From the NCBI RefSeq assembly GCF_019913785.1, contig NZ_JAIOHK010000055.1, positions 1-64,000 of the forward strand: a DNA stretch of 64,000 nt. Direction: 5' to 3'. Shown here piece by piece: positions 25,522-51,577 of the stretch. Under the pieces are notes generated by a model that was given only the letters and a program-made list of their open reading frames with translations, had not been told where the DNA came from and did not search any database. Made by a program: the position numbers and the translations under genes. This stretch comes from Altibacter sp. Its GTDB lineage: Bacteria > Bacteroidota > Bacteroidia > Flavobacteriales > Flavobacteriaceae. How positions within the stretch are numbered: position 1 is the first letter of the stretch; the number at the start of each line of letters is the position of its first letter.

Positions 25522-25645
25522 GTTGGATTTTTGATTGTTAGAACAGAAAAATAAAACACTGACATATCTAATTAATTGAATTGGCTAATAATTAGTAAAT
25601 TAGTTACTGCGTGAATTACAATTTATTTTCTTATTGGGAATAACC

Positions 25646-27091
25646 ATGAAACAAATAATTCTGATATATTGTTTTTTGCATTTGCATCTTAGCTATGGCC
25701 AGTACACTCAAGTACCAGATCCTAATTTCGAACAAGCACTTATAGATTTGGGTATAGATGATGACGGATTAAATGGGCAGTTCTTAACAACAAATGCTAT
25801 TGGGATTACAACTTTAAATTTGGATGAAAAAAATATAAATAATTTGACAGGTATAGAAGCATTTATAGATTTAGAACAGCTGTTTGCAAGTAGTAATAAT
25901 TTAAGCAGTTTTGATCTGTCAATGGTTCCTTCCGATTTATTTACCTTAGGCTTGAATGATAACAACCTATCGGATATCGACTTAAGCAATGTCCCTCAAA
26001 TTGTCAACCTATATCTTGGCAGTAATAATTTTACTAGTATAGATGCTTCCAATCTCTCCAGTCTGTTTATTTTTCATCTCTCTAATCAAAATATTACCAA
26101 TTTGAATTTGACGAATTGCACGAGTTTGGCCTCATTGAGATGTGTAGAAACTTCACTAAATTCAATAGATTTATCAGAATGTGTAAACCTTACCTATTTT
26201 AACGCTCGAGATTCTCAAATTACCTCATTGGATTTTTTAAATAACCCAAATATTGAAGAAATAGAGATTCAAAACACTCCTCTCTCAAATATTAATCTTC
26301 CAAACAATCCATTATTAGATTATCTATCAGTTAGTAATACACTGCTTACTGAACTTGATATATCAAACTGCCAGAGTCTTGTCTCACTGTATTTTAATGA
26401 TACAAATATTACTCAGTTGAATTTTAGTAACAATACTAATATTGAAATTATTTCTGGGAATAATAGTTCATTGAGCAGTATTGATGTAACAAATAATCCA
26501 AATTTAAGTTGGCTTTGGTTGAGAAATAATAACCTAACAGGGATTATAGATTTGTCCAATAATTTTGTTTTAGACGATGTTGAATTAAATTATAATATGC
26601 TTGAGGAGATGGACTTTTCTCACAATACGGACATTTCATTTATTAGAATTGACGATAATCCTAATTTACAGTTTGTAAATATGAATAATGGATCTAATGA
26701 AGATCTAGTTGCATTTATCGCCATTGACTGTCCAGAATTATCCTGTGTGGTTGTAGATGACACCAATGCCCCCAATACAAATTTCATCGTTGACGCTCAT
26801 ACAACCCTAGTGGAGAATATAGAAGATTGTGACAATCTTTCAGTTACTAAAAATAAATTGAGATCACTTTTTAATGTCTTCCCAAATCCAGTAAAAGGAG
26901 CTTTAAGAATTAAAAATAACTCTACATTTCAAATAGAATCTATTGAATTCTATAATCTCATTGGAGAATTAGTGCTTTCTAAAACCGAGAACCTCTACTT
27001 TGTTGACACTTCGATTCTAAAGAGTGGTGTATATTTTCTAAAAATCATAACGGGAAAAGGCACTCTTATCGAGAAAGTGCTAAAAAAGTAA
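25646..27091 (+). CDS. Secreted leucine-rich-repeat protein with T9SS sorting domain (third copy)
   Basis: A 481-residue exported LRR protein. ATG 25646 opens a signal peptide (MKQIILIYCFLHLHLSYGQ), followed by VPDPNFEQALIDLGIDDDGLNG, about 14 short LRR units rich in Asn/Ser (LxxLxxxNNxLxxIDLSN), the block CVVVDDTNAPN...IEDC shared with the LRR proteins at 13-15 kb, and a type A sorting domain (NVFPNPVKGALRIKN ... GVYFLKII ... VLKK). The gene is clearly richer in A/T than its surroundings and lies beside a decayed protease gene, suggesting acquisition by transfer. The ligand is unknown. Confidence 0.85.
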   Translation: MKQIILIYCFLHLHLSYGQYTQVPDPNFEQALIDLGIDDDGLNGQFLTTNAIGITTLNLDEKNINNLTGIEAFIDLEQLFASSNNLSSFDLSMVPSDLFTLGLNDNNLSDIDLSNVPQIVNLYLGSNNFTSIDASNLSSLFIFHLSNQNITNLNLTNCTSLASLRCVETSLNSIDLSECVNLTYFNARDSQITSLDFLNNPNIEEIEIQNTPLSNINLPNNPLLDYLSVSNTLLTELDISNCQSLVSLYFNDTNITQLNFSNNTNIEIISGNNSSLSSIDVTNNPNLSWLWLRNNNLTGIIDLSNNFVLDDVELNYNMLEEMDFSHNTDISFIRIDDNPNLQFVNMNNGSNEDLVAFIAIDCPELSCVVVDDTNAPNTNFIVDAHTTLVENIEDCDNLSVTKNKLRSLFNVFPNPVKGALRIKNNSTFQIESIEFYNLIGELVLSKTENLYFVDTSILKSGVYFLKIITGKGTLIEKVLKK

Positions 27092-28631: not shown

Positions 28632-29063
28632 ATGAAAACGAAACTTTATATCCTCATCACTTTTTTAGTTCTAATCGCCTGCAAAAAGGATGATGGCGTT
28701 AGAAATGACAATCCCTATCTGGTGGATCCATTAGTCAACCTAACCCTCAACCTGAACCTACCCGAATACAATCCTTTGAAATTCCCAGGAAATAGCATAA
28801 CGATCAATCATCAAGGCATTAAAGGGATTGTAATCTACAATGTGAACAATGATCTTTACACCGCCTTCGAACTAAGTGACCCCAATCACACGCCGAATAG
28901 TTGTTCTCGGATGACCATAGAAGGTATTGTCGCCAGCTGTCCGTGCAATGACGATAACTCTTACGACATAGTCACCGGCCAACACCAAGCCGATGAAAAC
29001 CTATACCCAATGCTTCAATATATCGCTACACGTACCGGGGATAATATTCAAATAGGCAATTAG
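28632..29063 (+). CDS. Lipoprotein with Rieske-like cysteine pattern
   Basis: A 143-residue lipoprotein: ATG 28632 begins a signal peptide with lipobox LIAC, so Cys is lipidated and the protein sits in a membrane of the envelope. The body contains LNLPEYNPLKFPGNSITI, a conserved block of a flavobacterial family, and later CSRMTIEGIVASCPCNDDNSYDIVTGQ. The arrangement of Cys around MTIEG resembles Rieske-type domains, but the two His ligands of a real 2Fe-2S centre are absent. Function unknown. Its last four bases overlap the stop of the convergent TonB-dependent receptor. Confidence 0.7.
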   Translation: MKTKLYILITFLVLIACKKDDGVRNDNPYLVDPLVNLTLNLNLPEYNPLKFPGNSITINHQGIKGIVIYNVNNDLYTAFELSDPNHTPNSCSRMTIEGIVASCPCNDDNSYDIVTGQHQADENLYPMLQYIATRTGDNIQIGN

Positions 29064-31237
29064 AATTTTATGGTTGCTCCTGCTAAAAAATTAATTGTGG
29101 CCTGTGGATAATATCCGGCACCTTCAATGGTAGTGACCGTTCCCGGAGTACTATAGTCATCATCAAACCTATAGTAATAACCATTGGATACATAGTGCAC
29201 ATTAAACATATTATTCACTAAAGCAGATAATACAATTTCCCGAACAAAAGCTACATTGTTCAAAGTATACCTAATGTTGAAATCATTTATAAAAAAGCTA
29301 TCCAGTTTTGAAACTTCACTGGCTGTATTTCCCATATATTGCTCACCAACAAATTTTGTAAGCAGCCCCAATTGCAAATTAGGTAGCGGCTGAAATTCGA
29401 TGACATTCCCTGCGATGATCTGTGGAGAAAAAGAGATATCAGTATTCCCAAGATCAACCAATTCGCCGTCTAAGGAAGTTATAAAATCTACATTCTTATT
29501 GGTGCTAAAAGCCACATTGGGACGTAACGCGATCTTGGGGGTCACCTCAATGCTTGCATCCACTTCCAATCCCAGTCGGTAGCTCTTTCCACTGGTGGCT
29601 CTAATTGGAGCACCCACATCATCCAGCGCTCCTGTGAGCACTAACTGATCTTTATAATCCATATAAAAGAGATTGCTGTTTATTTGTATTTTTTCTGAAG
29701 CAAAACGCCAACCCAGTTCAATATCGTCTAGTTTTTCTGAAGTAGTGATCCCCTGCTCGTAATCGCTTCTTCTAGGCTCACGATGCGCCCTTCCATACGA
29801 AATGTACAGTTGGTTTTTTCTATTAAGTTGGACCGAAACACCCGCCTTCGGATTAAAAAAATTGTAGTTTTCATCTATTGCCAAGGGCAAACGGTCTGAA
29901 GTTTCTCCATTGGTTTTGTAATTGACAAACCTCCCCTGAAGATCTCCAAAGACACTCCATTGTGGATTGATACGCCACGTTGCTTTCGAAAAAACGGTGG
30001 CTTCGGTCTTGTCACCTCTCCCAAAATAATACCGGTCCCTAATCTCACTTCCACCCGAATATTGTGCCCAAATTACTTCTCCAAAATGATCTCCTGTATA
30101 CGTACTAAAAAATGCCCCGGCTACCACATCAACCATTTCATCTTTATAATTGACATTGGCATTTAACGCATAAAAATTATTGTCCAACCATCGGCGCCGA
30201 ATAAGGTCGGTTGTATTAATGGTATCACCTCCTATTTCAACGGGTTCGAAATTATAAAAAGCAAAATCCTCGTCTTCTTTATACTGCTCAAAATATCCGC
30301 GTCCATAGGTGTAATTAAAAGCTATGCTGCTGCTCCAACGATTGTTATAGCGCTGGTTCCAAACGAGTTGATAATGGTCCTGAGCGTAGTTATCAACCTC
30401 ATTATCATAAAATTTAGTGGTGCCATCGGAATCGGTATACATCCCGGCATAGTTGGTGGTTCGGTCTGTTTCCAAGGTTTCGGCATCGATCCCGTTCCAG
30501 GCCTGATAGGTTTCTTCCCTTCCGCCGAAGGCAATCGCTTTAACCAGAGTGTTGTGGTCCTTAAAAGCGGCTTGTAAAAAATAGGATTTCAAATCGGAAC
30601 GCGCCCTGTCAATATATCCGTCTGAAGCGATATTTGAAAGCCTTCCCGCTATTTCAAAGTGCTCATTCAATAGACCGGTGCTAAACTTTAATGTATGCTT
30701 TCGGGTATGGTATGAACCAAATGAATTGGAAAATTCACCGGAAGCATTTTCGGCAACAGCATCTGTCAATAAATTCAAACTAGCACCAAAGGCTCCCGAA
30801 CCATTGGTAGAAGTCCCAACCCCTCTTTGCAGTTGTAAATTTTGTACCGAAGAAGTGAAATCCGGGAGGTTTACCCAAAAAGTCCCCTGACTCTCGGCAT
30901 CGTTAAATGGAATACCGTTGAGGGTAACATTGACCCGTGACGCATCACTTCCGCGTACGCGAATATACGTATACCCCACGCCTGCTCCGGCATCACTGGT
31001 GGTTACAACCGATGGTAGATAATTGAGTAAATAGGGTATGTCCTGACCTAAATTCCGCTTCTCCAATTCGCCCTTGTTAAGATTGGAGTGTGTAATTGGA
31101 GAATCGGCATCCACACGAACCGATTTTACAATCACCTCTTCAAGACTTTCCACATGGGTAGAATCGGTTACAATTTCCTGTGAAAAAGCAGACAGAAAAA
31201 GAAATACAAAACAGCATGTCGCATAAAATTGTTTCAT
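29060..31237 (-). CDS. TonB-dependent outer-membrane receptor under TPP riboswitch control (thiamine uptake)
   Basis: A 725-residue outer-membrane transporter energised by TonB. It has a signal peptide (about residues 1-19), a plug domain with LEEVIVKSVRVDADSP, YLLNYLPSVVTTSDAGAGVGYTYIRVRGSD (read in parts), LNGIPFNDAESQG and LQRGVGTSTNGSGAFGASLNL, and a C-terminal beta-barrel ending in FLAGATIKF. No N-terminal carboxypeptidase-like domain. A TPP riboswitch with its own promoter and terminator lies directly upstream, so thiamine, a thiamine phosphate or a precursor is the likely cargo. TPP-controlled outer-membrane receptors are known from comparative work in Bacteroidota; the exact ligand is inference. 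Confidence 0.9.
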   Translation of the reverse strand: MKQFYATCCFVFLFLSAFSQEIVTDSTHVESLEEVIVKSVRVDADSPITHSNLNKGELEKRNLGQDIPYLLNYLPSVVTTSDAGAGVGYTYIRVRGSDASRVNVTLNGIPFNDAESQGTFWVNLPDFTSSVQNLQLQRGVGTSTNGSGAFGASLNLLTDAVAENASGEFSNSFGSYHTRKHTLKFSTGLLNEHFEIAGRLSNIASDGYIDRARSDLKSYFLQAAFKDHNTLVKAIAFGGREETYQAWNGIDAETLETDRTTNYAGMYTDSDGTTKFYDNEVDNYAQDHYQLVWNQRYNNRWSSSIAFNYTYGRGYFEQYKEDEDFAFYNFEPVEIGGDTINTTDLIRRRWLDNNFYALNANVNYKDEMVDVVAGAFFSTYTGDHFGEVIWAQYSGGSEIRDRYYFGRGDKTEATVFSKATWRINPQWSVFGDLQGRFVNYKTNGETSDRLPLAIDENYNFFNPKAGVSVQLNRKNQLYISYGRAHREPRRSDYEQGITTSEKLDDIELGWRFASEKIQINSNLFYMDYKDQLVLTGALDDVGAPIRATSGKSYRLGLEVDASIEVTPKIALRPNVAFSTNKNVDFITSLDGELVDLGNTDISFSPQIIAGNVIEFQPLPNLQLGLLTKFVGEQYMGNTASEVSKLDSFFINDFNIRYTLNNVAFVREIVLSALVNNMFNVHYVSNGYYYRFDDDYSTPGTVTTIEGAGYYPQATINFLAGATIKF

Positions 31238-31304
31238 TCGTAAAAAATTAGCACGAATAAAAGGGGTATTACTCTTTTGTTATAGATTTATAAAAACACA
31301 GCAT

Positions 31305-31339
31305 AAAAAAACCTATTAGCACTTATAGGAACTAATAGG
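31305..31339 (-). terminator. Riboswitch-associated terminator
   Basis: Reverse-strand stem CCTATTAG (31339-31332) with CTAATAGG (31319-31312) followed by seven U residues. Placed between the TPP aptamer and the TonB receptor start, it is the expected expression platform that ends transcription when TPP is bound. Confidence 0.85.
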
Positions 31340-31368
31340 GGTATACAATGCGGACACTTTTGTATCCT

Positions 31369-31439
31369 ATCCCTTGGCGGCATTATCCGCCCAGGTTCAT
31401 TGGGTATAATCTCAGCTTTTTACGGCACCCCTTTGAGAT
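31369..31439 (-). promoter_or_regulatory. TPP riboswitch (THI element)
   Basis: On the reverse strand the conserved aptamer core is clear: GGGGTGCC, then GCTGAGA, ACCC, GAACCTG and GGATAATGCC, closing with AAGGGAT. The P1 helix can form between ATCTC (31439-31435) and GGGAT (31373-31369). This order and spacing are diagnostic of the thiamine pyrophosphate aptamer. It is followed by an intrinsic terminator and then the TonB-dependent receptor. Confidence 0.95.
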
Positions 31440-31445
31440 GTAGGG

Positions 31446-31453
31446 CAAAGATA
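31446..31453 (-). promoter_or_regulatory. Promoter -7 box of the riboswitch transcript (TATCTTTG)
   Basis: TATCTTTG on the reverse strand lies just before the TPP aptamer, between it and the arfB stop, so the receptor mRNA can begin independently of arfB with the aptamer at its extreme 5' end. No good -33 TTG was seen. Confidence 0.55.
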
Positions 31454-31458
31454 AGAAA

Positions 31459-31863
31459 TTAGTCTAGAGGGGGAGGTTTACGCGAAGATTTTTTTAAGGC
31501 TTGCGTTTTCTTGGCTTTCAGTCTTCTTTCGATAGCCGACTTGGTCGGTTTCGTTTTTTTTCTGGGTTTTGATACTTTCAGGTTTTCCTTCAGAAGCCTT
31601 AGCAAGCGTTCGATAACTATGGCTTTATTGCGGGACTGACTTCTAGTTTCCCCACATTGTAGCGTCAGGGTTCCTTCCGAAGAAATTCGAGAAGCCAATT
31701 TCGTGTAAAGTCGTTGCTTTTCGGCTTCAGACAAGGCTTCGGAGGCCAAGATGAGAAAAGAGACCTCCACTTTGGTAGCGGTCTTATTGACGTGCTGCCC
31801 TCCGGGACCACTGCTTCGGACTGCCTTAAATGTAAATTCTTTTATGAGTAAATCCGTCTGCAT
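31459..31863 (-). CDS. arfB: Peptidyl-tRNA hydrolase ArfB (ribosome rescue)
   Basis: Codon-independent release factor that frees peptides on stalled ribosomes. The 134-residue protein has the GGQ loop in RSSGPGGQHVNKTATKVEV and a basic C-terminal tail (KPRKKTKPTKSAIERRLKAKKTQ in parts) that enters the empty mRNA channel. Length and order match ArfB/YaeJ rather than PrfA/B. ATG overlaps the stop of the DUF4301 gene by one base, so translation is probably coupled. Confidence 0.94.
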   Translation of the reverse strand: MQTDLLIKEFTFKAVRSSGPGGQHVNKTATKVEVSFLILASEALSEAEKQRLYTKLASRISSEGTLTLQCGETRSQSRNKAIVIERLLRLLKENLKVSKPRKKTKPTKSAIERRLKAKKTQALKKSSRKPPPLD

Positions 31864-33392
31864 CAGGCATTGGGTCGATGTTCCTTGCTCAACAAGTCGT
31901 TCACGGTCTTAACCGGATTAAAGGTAAGACCGGGCACTTCCACAAGTGCCGTATTCCAATTGGACATGCCGCCATTCCAAAGCCCGGGTAATTCTAGTGC
32001 TTTTAATTTCTTACCATTTTGTGACTTTTCCGAAATAAATCCTGCCTTCGGATTGCAAAATTTAGTAAGATCGAATTTGTTTCCTTTAAAATCCCTAACC
32101 CCACAAACAATATCCACCGGATTAAAATGGGTAGCTTCATAGGCCATCGCACGTTGTCGTTTGTCTTCCATGTCAATCTGCGCTGTTTCTACAATCTGCA
32201 AAGTAGTAATCCCGGTTTCATTTTTCACCCAGAATGGCCCTCCGCCCGGAGCTCCCGTATTTTTCACCACCCCGCAAACACGAATGGGACGGTTTAAAAT
32301 ATACTTTAATTCCTCTATACTTTCAGGAATTTCCTTTACACTAAGTTCGTTCCACAGAAAGGATCGGACTTCCTTGGCAATGGCTTCCATCCCATTATTG
32401 CCGTGAAGTTCCTCCAAATAGTTAAATATTTTTTGCTGCAGCCAAAGCAATTTCCCCGCAAGTAATTTCTTGTAATGCGCAATGGTTTCCACATATTCTT
32501 CGGCAACCACATTGTCAATGTTCTTTATAAAGAGCAGATCGGCATCCACATCGTTCAGGTTTTCCAAAAGTGCGCCATGACCCGAAGGTCTAAAAATCAA
32601 TCGGCCATCGGCATCTCGTAAGGGTTTGTTTTCTAGTGTAACCGCAATTGTATCGGTCTCTTTTTTCTGAAAGGAATAGGAGATATTGAAATTGGTCTTG
32701 GTTTTTTTGCTTACCCTTTTTTTAACTGAATTAAATTCCTTTTTAAAATAGGAGACGTGTTCTTCAGCAAAGGTAAAATGGATTAAGGCTTCCTCTTTTA
32801 CCGAAGCGTAATGAGCCGCTTCAAACAATTGTTCCTCGAAGGCTGTAGTGGCATATTTTGTATATTTATGAAACGGTATCAGCCCCTTTGGCAGCTTATT
32901 AAAATTAAGGCCTTTTTTATCCAACATGGTTTTTACCAAAAGATAGCTCCGCATCCCCTTTTTACAATGTTTGTATTCGGGGTAGTTCTCCCGAATTTTT
33001 TTTCGAAGCGGATTCAGAAAGGCAAAGTCCTTTTGCGCACCAAAGAATTTGACAAGTTCTTCCCTGCCTTCAGTCTTTAAGAATTTATTCAGTCGTTCTT
33101 CCTCCGGATTGTATTCCTCCAAAAATTGATGTAAAAACCGAAACATCCGAGTAGCGGCACCCGAAGCAGGGACAAATTTTACAATTTCCAATTTGTCTTG
33201 CTTGGTCTCGTAGAGCGAAATTAACTTTTGTTGTACATCGGCGGGGATCGCCTCAATCCCGTTTCCCACAGAAGCTGCTGTAACGATCTCCATAAAAGGA
33301 ATTCCACGTGCAAAGGTTTCAAGCTGTTTTACCACTGTGTCGACAGACAGGCCATGCTTTTCAATTTGTTGTAGGTCTTTTTTTGTTAGCAT
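31863..33392 (-). CDS. DUF4301 family protein
   Basis: A 509-residue soluble protein matching DUF4301, a Bacteroidota family without proven function. Recognisable blocks are FVPASGAATRMFRFL near residue 78, FRPSGHGALLENLND near 265, PIRVCGVVKNTGAPGGGPFWV near 365, and ELPGLWNGGMSNWNTALVEVP near the C-terminus. The first block and GHGALLENL look like nucleotidyltransferase or sugar-nucleotide pyrophosphorylase motifs, so activity on a nucleotide sugar is a guess. It overlaps the kinase gene upstream by a few bases and arfB downstream by one. Confidence 0.88.
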   Translation of the reverse strand: MLTKKDLQQIEKHGLSVDTVVKQLETFARGIPFMEIVTAASVGNGIEAIPADVQQKLISLYETKQDKLEIVKFVPASGAATRMFRFLHQFLEEYNPEEERLNKFLKTEGREELVKFFGAQKDFAFLNPLRKKIRENYPEYKHCKKGMRSYLLVKTMLDKKGLNFNKLPKGLIPFHKYTKYATTAFEEQLFEAAHYASVKEEALIHFTFAEEHVSYFKKEFNSVKKRVSKKTKTNFNISYSFQKKETDTIAVTLENKPLRDADGRLIFRPSGHGALLENLNDVDADLLFIKNIDNVVAEEYVETIAHYKKLLAGKLLWLQQKIFNYLEELHGNNGMEAIAKEVRSFLWNELSVKEIPESIEELKYILNRPIRVCGVVKNTGAPGGGPFWVKNETGITTLQIVETAQIDMEDKRQRAMAYEATHFNPVDIVCGVRDFKGNKFDLTKFCNPKAGFISEKSQNGKKLKALELPGLWNGGMSNWNTALVEVPGLTFNPVKTVNDLLSKEHRPNA

Positions 33393-33961
33393 CCGCTCTG
33401 CTGCTTAAGTAGTTTTTGAATTTCAGAAATAGCACTGTTTAATCGCACCGAATTGGATCCTTGCAACGTCTTGTAAGGGAGATGAAGCCGTTTAAGTTCC
33501 GATTCAAAAATACAAAATAGCTCCGACCTATCATTGGGTCTGTCGCGTAAATTATCCGAAATCCAAGGCGTGTCGATATAGGTAAGAAAATATAGATCGT
33601 AGGTATTCTTTAATGCAAATTCTTTAATTTCTGAAGGGCAGAATCCATCGTAATAATATTCAGAATACACCTTGATTTCCAGCAGGTTCGTGTCGCAAAA
33701 AAGGATTCTGTTCGCCTTTTCCGAAGCGCTATTTTCGGCCCGCATTTGTCCTAGGGCAATGGGTAGCAAATCTGCTTTCGAAATTTTTTCTTTTTTGGTT
33801 TCCCACTTTTCTTCCAAGTATTCACGCATATATTCCGGCACCCACTCGGTGTGAAAATGTGCAGCCAGTTGCTTCGCCAAGGTTGTTTTTCCGGTAGATT
33901 CGGGACCGAATAAAACCACCTTTAAGCAGGTTGCAGGCTGTTGTTCAAGTGTTTTTTCCAT
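33386..33961 (-). CDS. P-loop AAA/NadR-like kinase
   Basis: A 191-residue ATP-binding protein with Walker A GPESTGKTTLAKQLA near the N-terminus, FCDTNLLEIKVYSEYYY in the middle and DTPWISDNLRDRPNDR near the end, matching the kinase domain of NadR-like proteins (nicotinamide riboside kinase). Start at ATG 33961, inside the pnuC-like gene by 40 bases; a longer frame starting at 34162 would run through pnuC. Beside PnuC, the standard reading is nicotinamide riboside phosphorylation; beside a thiamine-binding protein and a TPP riboswitch, thiamine phosphorylation is an alternative. Confidence 0.85.
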   Translation of the reverse strand: MEKTLEQQPATCLKVVLFGPESTGKTTLAKQLAAHFHTEWVPEYMREYLEEKWETKKEKISKADLLPIALGQMRAENSASEKANRILFCDTNLLEIKVYSEYYYDGFCPSEIKEFALKNTYDLYFLTYIDTPWISDNLRDRPNDRSELFCIFESELKRLHLPYKTLQGSNSVRLNSAISEIQKLLKQQSGC

Positions 33962-34554
33962 GCGAGATAACCAAAGATAGCGATGAAGGTAAAAATAAGG
34001 TATTGAAAACTGGTAAAAGTAAAGCCCTTGTAAAAATAGAGCGGAACGGAGATGATATCGCCCACGATCCAATATATCCAGTTTTCGATCTTTCGTTTTG
34101 CCATCAACCACATACCCACAAAAAAGATAGCTGTGGTAACGGTATCGACATAGGCCGTCCAATCATTCCATTTGTCATAGACCTTATACACCACAAATAC
34201 AAAAAGCAGCGTTGCTACGAATATTATTATGGAATAGTTTTTCTCTTTCCGTGTGGTAGTGGTTATGGGTGTAAAGTGGGTAGGATCTACTTTTCGTGTC
34301 CAGATATACCAACCGTAAACGCTCATGGCGAAATAATAGCCATTGATCATCATATCTCCCAACAGCGACCATTTAAACAACAAGTACACAAAAATAGCGG
34401 TACTGATCATCCCGGTAGGGAATACCCAGATCTTATTTTCTTTGGAAAACCATACCGACAAAAACCCATAGAGCACTGCAATGATTTCCAAAGCAATGTC
34501 TAGGGTATCATAGGTGTTATATTGGCCGAATAAAAACTCAAAAAGCTGGTTCAT
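33922..34554 (-). CDS. PnuC/PnuT family vitamin transporter
   Basis: A 210-residue inner-membrane transporter with about seven spans, of the PnuC family. Homologues carry nicotinamide riboside (PnuC), thiamine (PnuT) or riboflavin (PnuX). Characteristic stretches are LDIALEIIAVLYGFLSVWFSKE near the start, MSVYGWYIWTRK in the third span region, and IVGDIISVPLYFYKGF near the end. The family motif WxxW is present (WYIW) and is followed by Thr-Arg-Lys, not Asn/Asp, at the seventh position. The gene overlaps the thiamine-binding protein gene by 17 bases and the kinase by 40, so the three are one translational unit; this context favours thiamine. Confidence 0.88.
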   Translation of the reverse strand: MNQLFEFLFGQYNTYDTLDIALEIIAVLYGFLSVWFSKENKIWVFPTGMISTAIFVYLLFKWSLLGDMMINGYYFAMSVYGWYIWTRKVDPTHFTPITTTTRKEKNYSIIIFVATLLFVFVVYKVYDKWNDWTAYVDTVTTAIFFVGMWLMAKRKIENWIYWIVGDIISVPLYFYKGFTFTSFQYLIFTFIAIFGYLAWKKHLNNSLQPA

Positions 34555-34798
34555 AATCGCTTCGATCCGATTTTACAATTTTAATATATAACAAGCCTCG
34601 TTCTACCGCCTCCAGGGCTGTTTTTATTTCCTTCTGAAGCAAATTCATCACCTCGTCATATTCTCCGTACACCTGCGTGCTCAACGGGTTTTCAAGCACC
34701 GTCAATCCTGAAGCGCGTAATTTTTTTATAAAATTGATGATGACCGGTTCGAAATCGTCTTGTATAGGTGTTAAGGTTAGTTCTACAGATATCTTCAT
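34538..34798 (-). CDS. Thiamine-binding protein family (DUF77/YkoF-MTH1187 type)
   Basis: An 86-residue cytoplasmic protein of the thiamine-binding/DUF77 family: VELTLTPIQDDFEPVI at the start, FIKKLRASGLTVLENPLSTQVYGEYDEVMNLL (in parts) in the middle and LYIKIVKSDRS at the end, a ferredoxin-like fold. Members bind thiamine or its hydroxymethylpyrimidine part. Overlap of 17 bases with the PnuC/PnuT gene ties it to that transporter. It is the best local evidence that the transporter moves thiamine. Confidence 0.82.
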   Translation of the reverse strand: MKISVELTLTPIQDDFEPVIINFIKKLRASGLTVLENPLSTQVYGEYDEVMNLLQKEIKTALEAVERGLLYIKIVKSDRSDYEPAF

Positions 34799-34854: not shown

Positions 34855-35562
34855 TTAGTATTTAAGCAATTCTTCAAACACAGTTCCCATGACCACCAGA
34901 TCGGCTCCCGCCTTGTAAGCGGCTTGTTTTTGGACTTCAGTCCTAATCCCTCCACCTACCAGTAGTGGGATGGTTATCACCTCTTTTACCGCCGAAATAA
35001 CCTCAGGTCTTACCGGAAATCGCGCACCACTGCCCGCTTCCAAATATACCAACTTGGCTCCCAGGAATTGCCCTGCCAAGGCCGTATGAACTATGGTTTC
35101 CAAATCATTTTGAGAAATTGGGTCGGTCCCCGAAATACGTTCTACGGCCGATTTGCTCCCACCGTCCAACAAAATGTATCCGGTGGAAATTACTTCCAAC
35201 TCGGTATCGAGCAGTCTTGGGATTGAACGCAGCTGTTGTCCTATCAAATACTCTGCATTTCGTCCCGAAAGTAAGGACAAAAACAACAAGGCATCTGCCG
35301 CTTCGGTTATTTGGGAATAATCGCCAGGGAATAAAAAAACAGGTATCGTGCACTGTTTCTTAATCGCTTTTACGGTAGCCTCGGCATGTCCGTTTAACAC
35401 CGTGCTCCCTCCAACAAATAAATGGGTTGTTTCAGAAGGAATCTTTTTTAAAAAGGAAACGACTTGCTTTGTGTCGAATTTATCGGGATCGACAAGAATT
35501 GCCAAACATTTCTTTTCTTCCGAAATCCTATCAAGCAAACTTTGGTAATACGATGGCGTCAT
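34855..35562 (-). CDS. Geranylgeranylglyceryl/heptaprenylglyceryl phosphate synthase family
   Basis: A 235-residue TIM-barrel prenyltransferase of the PcrB/GGGPS family, joining a polyprenyl diphosphate to glycerol 1-phosphate. Blocks: CLAILVDPDKFD (about residue 19), LFVGGSTV, FLFPGDYSQI, LLSGRNAEYLIGQQ, TGYILLDGG, YLEAGSGA and LLVGGGIRT, which include the phosphate- and metal-binding residues. Bacteroidota carry such genes widely although they make no archaeal lipids; the product in vivo is uncertain. Its first codon overlaps the stop of the phosphopantetheinyl transferase gene by four bases. Confidence 0.92.
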   Translation of the reverse strand: MTPSYYQSLLDRISEEKKCLAILVDPDKFDTKQVVSFLKKIPSETTHLFVGGSTVLNGHAEATVKAIKKQCTIPVFLFPGDYSQITEAADALLFLSLLSGRNAEYLIGQQLRSIPRLLDTELEVISTGYILLDGGSKSAVERISGTDPISQNDLETIVHTALAGQFLGAKLVYLEAGSGARFPVRPEVISAVKEVITIPLLVGGGIRTEVQKQAAYKAGADLVVMGTVFEELLKY

Positions 35563-36203
35563 CTTTGGTTTTCTTCAGAAATTAAAGCATACGCACAGGT
35601 AAATCCTTCAAATTCCAAAAACCATACCTTGTACTGTGCGGTTTTATCTTCATACGATACTATGGCAACCGAAGCCATATCCTCCAACGCAAAATCATCC
35701 ACATATATATGTTGTAAAAAACTCACTCCCGGACTCGCAAAACTCTTATATAAGGATTCTTTGGCACCCCATACCATGGTCAGTTTCCGCATAATGGCAT
35801 CATCGTTGGCCAACGTTCTGTATTCTTCTATGGGTGTAAATTTATGAGCGATTCTTATAATCTTAGGCCGCTGCATTTCAATATCGATCCCTACTTCCAT
35901 ATCACTTATAATAATGGCCGAAAAAATAAAGGAATGTGTGATCGAAATATGTTTACCGTCGGTAAGATGCGGCTTTCCATTCGCGTCGTAATACAAATCG
36001 GCATCGACATATCCTTCAACCGCCATTAAATGTCGCACGCTCATAAATCCGCGACGGTGTAAATCACTTTTCATACCATCCACCCGTTGCCGACAGGGTG
36101 GCGTAAGGTTTATCCCTTCTGAAAGTGTTTCAAAGGATTCTTCTATCTTCCAAATGAGGACCTTAGTAGTAGGATTAACTGTTATAGTTTTGTAAAGTGG
36201 CAT
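35559..36203 (-). CDS. 4'-phosphopantetheinyl transferase superfamily protein
   Basis: Transfers phosphopantetheine from CoA to a carrier protein serine. The 214-residue length fits the Sfp-like class. Motifs: [11 protein letters not shown], the metal-binding [10 protein letters not shown] and [12 protein letters not shown]. It could serve acyl carrier protein (as the only holo-ACP synthase) or a specialised carrier; no carrier gene is adjacent. Start 82 bases from the divergent ahcY start. Co-transcribed with the GGGPS-like gene. Confidence 0.92.
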
Positions 36204-51294: not shown

Positions 51295-51577
51295 CGGAAT
51301 GCTCAAATTTTTTGAAGTGATTTTTATAGGGGCTGCTCCTTTTCCGCCAAAGGCGGATTTGTAGCACCGCGCTTTCCGCTATATCTTTTTTATTTGGGTA
51401 TTTGGCCTTTGCCAGTGTAAAAGAACAATAAAAAAGGATGCCGCTGCAATCGCTGCCCCAAGGACAGACAATAGTCGAAACTGTATACTTCTATATACGC
51501 TTAAAAAAAATTGGGAATAAATAAAAAATCAGAAATTTAAGCACCAAATCATGATACGGTCTCAATGACCGGCGCTC
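51295..51577. other. Intergenic stretch with hairpin element, atpD/glmS
   Basis: With the atpD leader this is 376 bases without a gene (51202-51577). It holds a short hairpin TCCGCC (51343-51348) with GGCGGA (51352-51357) inside a GC-rich patch from about 51327 to 51385 (GGGGCTGCTCC ... CGCGCTTTCCGC), flanked by AT-rich sequence. The patch looks like a dispersed non-coding element; no tRNA, small RNA promoter or coding frame is convincing. No clear terminator for glmS was found. Confidence 0.4.

Follow-up and report, generated by a model that had tools for sequence, protein, structure and literature searches.

In Bacteroides, a TonB-dependent receptor linked to thiamine pyrophosphate (TPP), the transporter PnuT and the enzyme Tnr3/ThiN form an established set, as described in the available part of PMC5613172. 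Bacteroidetes of the Baltic Sea transcribe omr1 and pnuC (PMC12442306, available part), and the salvage enzymes for thiamine (vitamin B1) listed in the accessible portion of PMC6593275 are ThiK, ThiM and ThiN. Here we describe a related locus of Altibacter sp. (Flavobacteriaceae; assembly GCF_019913785.1), found in positions 1 to 64,000 of contig NZ_JAIOHK010000055.1, a 64,000 nt stretch referred to below as the window. Genes for a Thiamine_BP protein, a PnuC-family transporter, a stand-alone kinase resembling the kinase domain of NadR, a DUF4301 protein and ArfB follow one another head to tail, and are succeeded by a TPP aptamer and then a TonB receptor gene. We think it likely that this locus serves thiamine salvage, with the NadR-like kinase phosphorylating thiamine and so replacing ThiN in a genome without detectable ThiE or ThiN. 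The type of locus would then be known, and the enzyme at its trapping step new. No report of a NadR-like thiamine kinase was found in the open-licence literature, and prior notice in subscription papers is possible.

Thiamine genes of the Altibacter genome

The genome (G000; 2.98 Mb, 85 contigs, 98.8% complete) has a single PF04973 (Pnu) gene. The ThiN profile (PF04263) gave no match in it at E ≤ 1, and no ThiE was found with PF02581 (best match, E 0.013). ThiL is present at C15:97303-98295 (322 bits), on the same contig as the locus but elsewhere. By these profiles, the genome appears to be without ThiN to phosphorylate thiamine and without ThiE to make thiamine monophosphate (TMP); ThiC, ThiD, ThiM, YjbQ and ThiK-type kinases were not searched. 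An earlier note on the window had proposed looking for thiN and thiamine synthesis genes.

Distribution of the kinase in the class Bacteroidia

The class was inferred as Bacteroidia from the nearest named relatives, and six profile searches were run on the same set of 197 genomes of this class, filtered at 90% completeness. Presence counts are complete for genomes with a match, while positions of Pnu, TPP riboswitch, ThiL and PF02581 are those among the matches listed. Matches were obtained for Pnu in 141 genomes (E ≤ 1e-3), ThiN in 39, the kinase model in 106 (E ≤ 1e-6), the TPP riboswitch in 183 (118 over the gathering score), ThiL in 194, including ThiN-bearing genomes without ThiE, and PF02581 in 95 (E ≤ 1e-6). 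The kinase model also picks up NadR, and one genome (G094) has NadR only. The best PF02581 match per genome was either strong (71 genomes, at least 96 bits) or weak (24 genomes, at most 76 bits). Six PF02581 genes were spot-checked with NCBIfam models. The two strong ones match ThiE models best, with TIGR00693 scores of 108.8 and 75.5 bits for the matched stretch only, both under the cut-off of 145.1, and the four weak ones score poorly with both ThiE and TenI models (TIGR00693, 27–55 bits).

The 126 genomes without strong ThiE divide sharply into 91 with the stand-alone kinase, 29 with ThiN and six with neither (G024, G033, G092, G097, G123 and G171); the two enzymes never occur together. In one of the six, G092, PF02581 is matched in part, and strong ThiE is found in two members of its family. 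Among the 71 genomes with strong ThiE, a kinase or ThiN is found in 20. Fisher tests give 6e-24 for kinase-or-ThiN versus ThiE, and 6e-23 for kinase versus ThiN among the 126 ThiE-less genomes, genome-level values that are inflated by kinship, as are the other genome-level values below. When any PF02581 match is taken as ThiE, 102 genomes are without it, of which 68 carry the kinase, 29 ThiN, none both and five neither. Across all 197 genomes, kinase and ThiN occur together in four, the kinase alone in 102, ThiN alone in 35 and neither in 56 (p 4e-10); for the 141 Pnu genomes the corresponding counts are 4, 102, 30 and 5 (p 3e-21). At the level of families, 28 have ThiE-less genomes with the kinase and 11 have ThiE-less genomes with ThiN, with no family having both, and where ThiE varies within a family (12 families), the members without it have the salvage enzyme more often in eight, less often in none and equally often in four (p 0.008). 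In independent pairs drawn on the transporter tree, kinase and ThiN never change in the same direction. This pattern strongly supports a predicted thiamine-phosphorylating enzyme that replaces ThiN, and is not what salvage of nicotinamide adenine dinucleotide (NAD) would predict. The earlier note had suggested that the kinase acts on thiamine, and the distribution supports this in silico: 120 of the 126 ThiE-less genomes have the kinase or ThiN, and never both.

An orphan ThiL was considered as a decisive sign and dropped, as ThiL is near-universal in the set and occurs in ThiN-bearing genomes too. ThiL is likewise kept in genomes with ThiN and without strong ThiE, where there is no obvious source of TMP.

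Phylogeny of the transporter

The transporter tree is a quick tree with SH-aLRT support in which long branches are present; sequences that contained internal stops or were of insufficient length were not used in the trees. The window transporter lies within a supported clade of 25 rows (96), which three of five ThiN-linked PnuT proteins join at 86. The clade includes four Pnu proteins (L071, L082, L090 and L138) whose genes, or the receptor-Pnu operons that hold them, are preceded by a TPP aptamer. E. coli PnuC groups elsewhere with four of five NadR-linked Pnu proteins (88), and the fifth NadR-linked row is also elsewhere. Close relatives of the window transporter also occur in two kinase-less genomes (G020 and G072), each of which has ThiN and ThiE. 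The earlier note had proposed this phylogeny as a check on its assignment to PnuT, which a firm grouping with NR-specific PnuC was to refute. No such grouping is seen, and the placement with riboswitch-linked and ThiN-linked PnuT, away from PnuC specific for nicotinamide riboside (NR), supports a predicted PnuT-type thiamine transporter.

Gene neighbourhoods of the kinase

All 106 kinase-model genomes have Pnu. Among the matches listed, 87 of them have it within 1.5 kb of the kinase, and in 88 of 88 Pnu-kinase pairs within that distance Pnu is upstream on the same strand. Neighbourhoods were examined in 159 of 166 planned stretches, those left out being the window itself, G068 (a weak match to Pnu) and five places with the kinase only; the stand-alone kinase in G008, G017, G107, G132 and G153 was judged from frame lengths. 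TPP aptamers were mapped with a model built from the window aptamer and 23 from the fetched stretches. In the 99 genomes with a stand-alone kinase locus, a TPP aptamer lies within 6.5 kb in 39, a close relative of the receptor (E < 1e-100) within 6.5 kb in 38, and Thiamine_BP within 1.5 kb in 15, so that at least one of these thiamine marks is near the kinase in 48. Around full NadR, by contrast, such marks occur in none of six loci (p 0.03), and Rfam at the gathering threshold finds no TPP element in these six. Five of the six NadR proteins are beside Pnu, and their full-length matches to TIGR01526 (163–277 bits) are below the equivalog cut-off of 341.

Some genomes hold both arrangements. 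NadR and a separate stand-alone kinase are found together in five (G130, G014, G145, G191 and G055), and in G130 the order at the stand-alone locus is Pnu-kinase-TPP-receptor while the NadR locus is Pnu-NadR. In two genomes of one genus that are near copies here (G136 and G160), there are two TPP aptamers, one immediately ahead of Pnu-kinase and the other ahead of the receptor; Rfam scores in G136 (L105) are 56.3 bits for the former, above gathering, and 37.3 bits for the latter. Among the matches listed, a TPP riboswitch is about 100 bases or less from the kinase in five genomes with no Pnu within 1.5 kb, and nine genomes have a weak, TenI-like PF02581 gene just upstream of Pnu-kinase. Separately, a more distant TonB receptor is found directly upstream of Pnu-NadR in two loci (L062 and L069), possibly for outer-membrane uptake of NR.

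Closer relatives were taken as the best 80 of 572 related kinase loci found among named genomes; they are mostly Flavobacteriaceae by title, and some contigs are short. Pnu is present in all 80. DUF4301, Thiamine_BP and the TPP aptamer are seen at 69, 66 and 52 loci, the receptor at 50 and arfB at 49, and all 50 receptor-bearing loci have the aptamer. Transporter, Thiamine_BP, aptamer and receptor accompany the kinase more often than by chance. The nearest (L207, 73%), from an Altibacter metagenome-assembled genome (MAG), is without Thiamine_BP, and no aptamer was seen in its stretch. In L228 and L284, Pnu, kinase, aptamer and receptor are within about 200 bases of each other, with no DUF4301 or arfB between. 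Fifty genomes, of which 10 are titled MAG or uncultured, were picked to favour named strains, and with L270 left out ThiN was searched in 49 of the 80. It exceeded the cut-off in three of these 49 kinase-bearing relatives, all Polaribacter.

Thiamine_BP may belong with the kinase. All seven ThiN-bearing genomes of the family (three Polaribacter and four of the class set) are without Thiamine_BP beside Pnu, and 45 of 49 ThiN-less genomes have it, with ThiN coming from two genera only.

The kinase protein

The best curated matches of the window kinase are the NAD-salvage models TIGR01526 and NF005988. The first is matched at positions 159-318 only, the ribosylnicotinamide kinase (RNK)-like P-loop domain, with 104.5 bits against an equivalog cut-off of 341. 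The nicotinamide mononucleotide (NMN) adenylyltransferase (NMNAT) part of NadR is not matched in the 191 aa protein, nor is PF04263, the catalytic domain of ThiN and thiamine pyrophosphokinase, among its Pfam matches. A structure model (pLDDT 94.7) has NadR as its nearest fold, followed by thymidylate kinases. The P-loop residues, E43, R46, D90, D136 and R139 are near-invariant. At three further sites the window has the residue typical of stand-alone kinases, namely Q72 (99/102 stand-alone vs 3/7 NadR), E76 (83/102 vs 2/7) and K97 (69/102 vs 1/7). The kinase gene of the earlier note stands, with an amended start, since the in-frame ATG at 33961 gives 191 aa.

Riboswitch and receptor

At E ≤ 1 the genome yields no TPP match other than this aptamer. 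Its score is below the Rfam gathering score of 54.3 bits (RF00059), yet the match is full length (E 1e-6), and it keeps 27 of the 27 columns that are invariant among 23 other aptamers. Between it and the receptor gene stands a hairpin followed by T7, likely a terminator. The hairpin is missing from a consensus terminator scan, which permits loops of at most 8 and whose count of 7 is no excess over 7.5 in shuffles, and the folding z-score of the leader (-1.65) is not significant. TPP probably represses the receptor through this riboswitch. The receptor is homologous to those upstream of Pnu in two loci where ThiN follows (L052, E 3e-163; L054, E 1e-167).

Proposed pathway

We infer the substrates, product and regulation as follows. 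Thiamine would cross the outer membrane by way of the TonB receptor, whose expression TPP probably represses via the riboswitch; Thiamine_BP would bind the vitamin, and PnuT would pass it through the inner membrane. The NadR-like kinase would then turn thiamine into TMP, the product expected from a NadR-type fold, and ThiL would convert TMP to TPP. According to the title of PMC5749112, a PnuT works by facilitated diffusion, in which case phosphorylation would be the trapping step. The earlier note spoke of a full thiamine salvage locus; transport and kinase genes are indeed together, but 'full' goes slightly too far, as ThiL is elsewhere and the riboswitch is not ahead of the transporter and kinase.

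Conflicting evidence and alternative functions

Several observations weigh against a thiamine kinase at this locus. Four genomes of one genus of the same family carry the kinase, ThiN and ThiE together, and four further relatives have sub-threshold ThiN matches of 19–20 bits. The independent pairs on supported branches include only about three that are informative (median p 0.25, not significant). Near-universal ThiL lends no weight to a monophosphate product. In the transporter tree, kinase-linked Pnu proteins are scattered, most of them outside the window clade, two on long branches fall with the E. coli PnuC group, and two ThiN-linked Pnu proteins (G099 and G179) are away from the window's transporter. 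In 48 of the 99 genomes with a stand-alone kinase locus, neither a TPP aptamer nor a gene for the receptor, Thiamine_BP or a PF02581 protein is seen near the kinase. The kinase tree splits stand-alone kinases from NadR domains with a support of only 57, and of the stand-alone groups the subfamily of the window's own family (7 rows) lies closest to NadR. Site 99 is Tyr in the window, as in 5/7 NadR, and Trp in 94/102 stand-alone kinases; the window subfamily has Tyr or Phe here, and 94/95 other stand-alone kinases Trp. Finally, the riboswitch can control the receptor and neither the transporter nor the kinase at this locus, because both lie upstream and the aptamer sits behind arfB.

An alternative is NAD salvage, in which the transporter would be PnuC, the kinase would make NMN from NR, DUF4301 or NadD would adenylate it, and the receptor would be a chance neighbour. 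The NadR-like kinase family, the closeness of the window subfamily to NadR with its shared Tyr99, and the existence of Pnu-NadR cassettes in the class all favour it, as do the nucleotidyltransferase-like fold of DUF4301 and the kinase-DUF4301 fusions of seven loci. We nevertheless regard it as unlikely: the transporter does not group with E. coli PnuC and the NadR-linked Pnu proteins, the kinase has no NMNAT domain, and NadR loci are without the thiamine marks that many stand-alone loci have. The kinase also tends to be present where ThiE is absent, and in those genomes it is never found with ThiN, a comparison for which NAD genes were not searched.

The TenI-like PF02581 genes just upstream of Pnu-kinase in nine genomes, among the matches listed, suggest that vitamers other than thiamine may be handled. 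The kinase might accordingly act on a thiamine fragment, such as hydroxymethylpyrimidine (HMP) or hydroxyethylthiazole, or on another ligand, while an unlinked enzyme phosphorylates thiamine. As judged from ThiE and ThiN this is very unlikely, as ThiE-less, ThiN-less cells would still have no route to TPP, and kinase and ThiN are together in none of the 126 ThiE-less genomes.

That the kinase is a pyrophosphokinase giving TPP directly would suit its alternation with ThiN, itself a pyrophosphokinase, and the retention of ThiL nearly everywhere does not discriminate and leaves room for direct TPP formation, but the fold and motifs match the single-phosphate kinase domain of NadR and make this most improbable.

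DUF4301

For a thiamine salvage locus, DUF4301 is the main unexplained part, and it could also favour NAD salvage. Its structure model resembles UGPase/UAP1, a UDP-sugar-pyrophosphorylase-like fold, and those stretches of the class set in which it was seen are all from the window's own family. In seven related loci (L064, L114, L118, L122, L262, L264 and L266), kinase and DUF4301 form one reading frame of 699-800 aa, stop to stop; four are of genus g2, which also has ThiN and ThiE, two of Croceivirga and one of a MAG. A far-reaching and scarcely probable extension is that the kinase founds a NadR-related family of thiamine kinases whose product, in Flavobacteriaceae, is nucleotidylated by DUF4301, its neighbour or fusion partner, for storage or signalling. 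The equally improbable product of that step would be NDP-thiamine or a compound like adenosine thiamine diphosphate. If true, the kinase-plus-nucleotidyltransferase logic of NadR would have moved from vitamin B3 to vitamin B1.

Layout of the locus and neighbouring genes

Coordinates are given in Table 1. All locus genes read from the minus strand, begin with ATG and have uninterrupted frames. The overlaps are 17 bases for Thiamine_BP/transporter, 40 for transporter/kinase, 7 for kinase/DUF4301 and 1 for DUF4301/arfB, in agreement with the reverse-strand cluster and the 17-base overlap described in the earlier note. ArfB is probably a passenger of the locus. Genes for a geranylgeranylglyceryl phosphate (GGGP) synthase and a phosphopantetheinyl transferase are directly upstream of Thiamine_BP (34855-36203, minus strand, overlapping each other by 4 bases), and the transcript may be longer. 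The window also contains a leucine-rich-repeat protein with a Por secretion tail at 25634-27091, and a Flavo-1 RNA at 51361-51461, minus strand (53.9 bits, gathering score 42).

Table 1. Features of the Altibacter locus, in window coordinates.
Feature	Position	Strand	Evidence
Thiamine_BP (MTH1187/YkoF-type), small thiamine-binding protein, 86 aa	34538..34798	-	PF01910, 35.3 bits vs cut-off 24.9
Predicted PnuT-type inner-membrane thiamine transporter (PnuC family), 210 aa	33922..34554	-	PF04973, E 1e-53
Stand-alone NadR-RNK-like P-loop kinase (AAA_28/RNK), 191 aa, proposed thiamine kinase	33386..33961	-	PF13521, E 1e-39
DUF4301, UDP-sugar-pyrophosphorylase-like fold (model), 509 aa	31863..33392	-	PF14134, E 7e-198
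arfB (ribosome rescue)	31459..31863	-	NF006718, 128.5 bits vs cut-off 100
TPP riboswitch aptamer	31353..31442	-	RF00059, 46 bits, E 9.9e-7
Hairpin then T7, candidate terminator expression platform	31305..31339	-	Sequence and fold
TonB-dependent outer-membrane receptor (OMthi/Omr1 type), 725 aa	29060..31237	-	PF00593 (barrel) and PF07715 (Plug), above cut-off

Significance and comparison with known systems

If the proposed function is correct, a kinase that curated models match best to NAD salvage would serve thiamine salvage in most genomes of the class that lack ThiE (91/126 in the sample), in genera that include Winogradskyella, Maribacter and Aequorivita. This would close the step left open in genome-based predictions of B1 salvage when ThiN is missing, end the misreading of such genes as NAD salvage, and imply that a transporter family and the kinase that partners it have both switched vitamins, from B3 to B1.

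With NadR and PnuC, the locus shares a kinase with a P-loop RNK domain, for which NadR is the nearest fold, and a kinase gene adjoining that of a Pnu transporter. It differs in the missing NMNAT domain, in a transporter outside the E. coli and NadR-linked group, and in a presence that follows thiamine genes (NAD genes were not compared). Like ThiK, ThiM and ThiN, as listed in the accessible portion of PMC6593275, the window kinase would act at the salvage step that precedes ThiL or takes its place, though unlike ThiN, the only one of the three compared, it has no PF04263 match. The OMthi-pnuT-tnr3 operon of Bacteroides differs in having tnr3/ThiN where the window has a NadR-like kinase, and the window has Thiamine_BP, DUF4301 and arfB in addition and a receptor set apart from the transporter genes. 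In common with that operon, as described in the available part of PMC5613172, it combines a TPP-riboswitch-linked TonB receptor, PnuT and a (here predicted) thiamine-phosphorylating enzyme; the window receptor is homologous to those of receptor-Pnu-ThiN loci, and the transporter clade adjoins three of five ThiN-linked PnuT.

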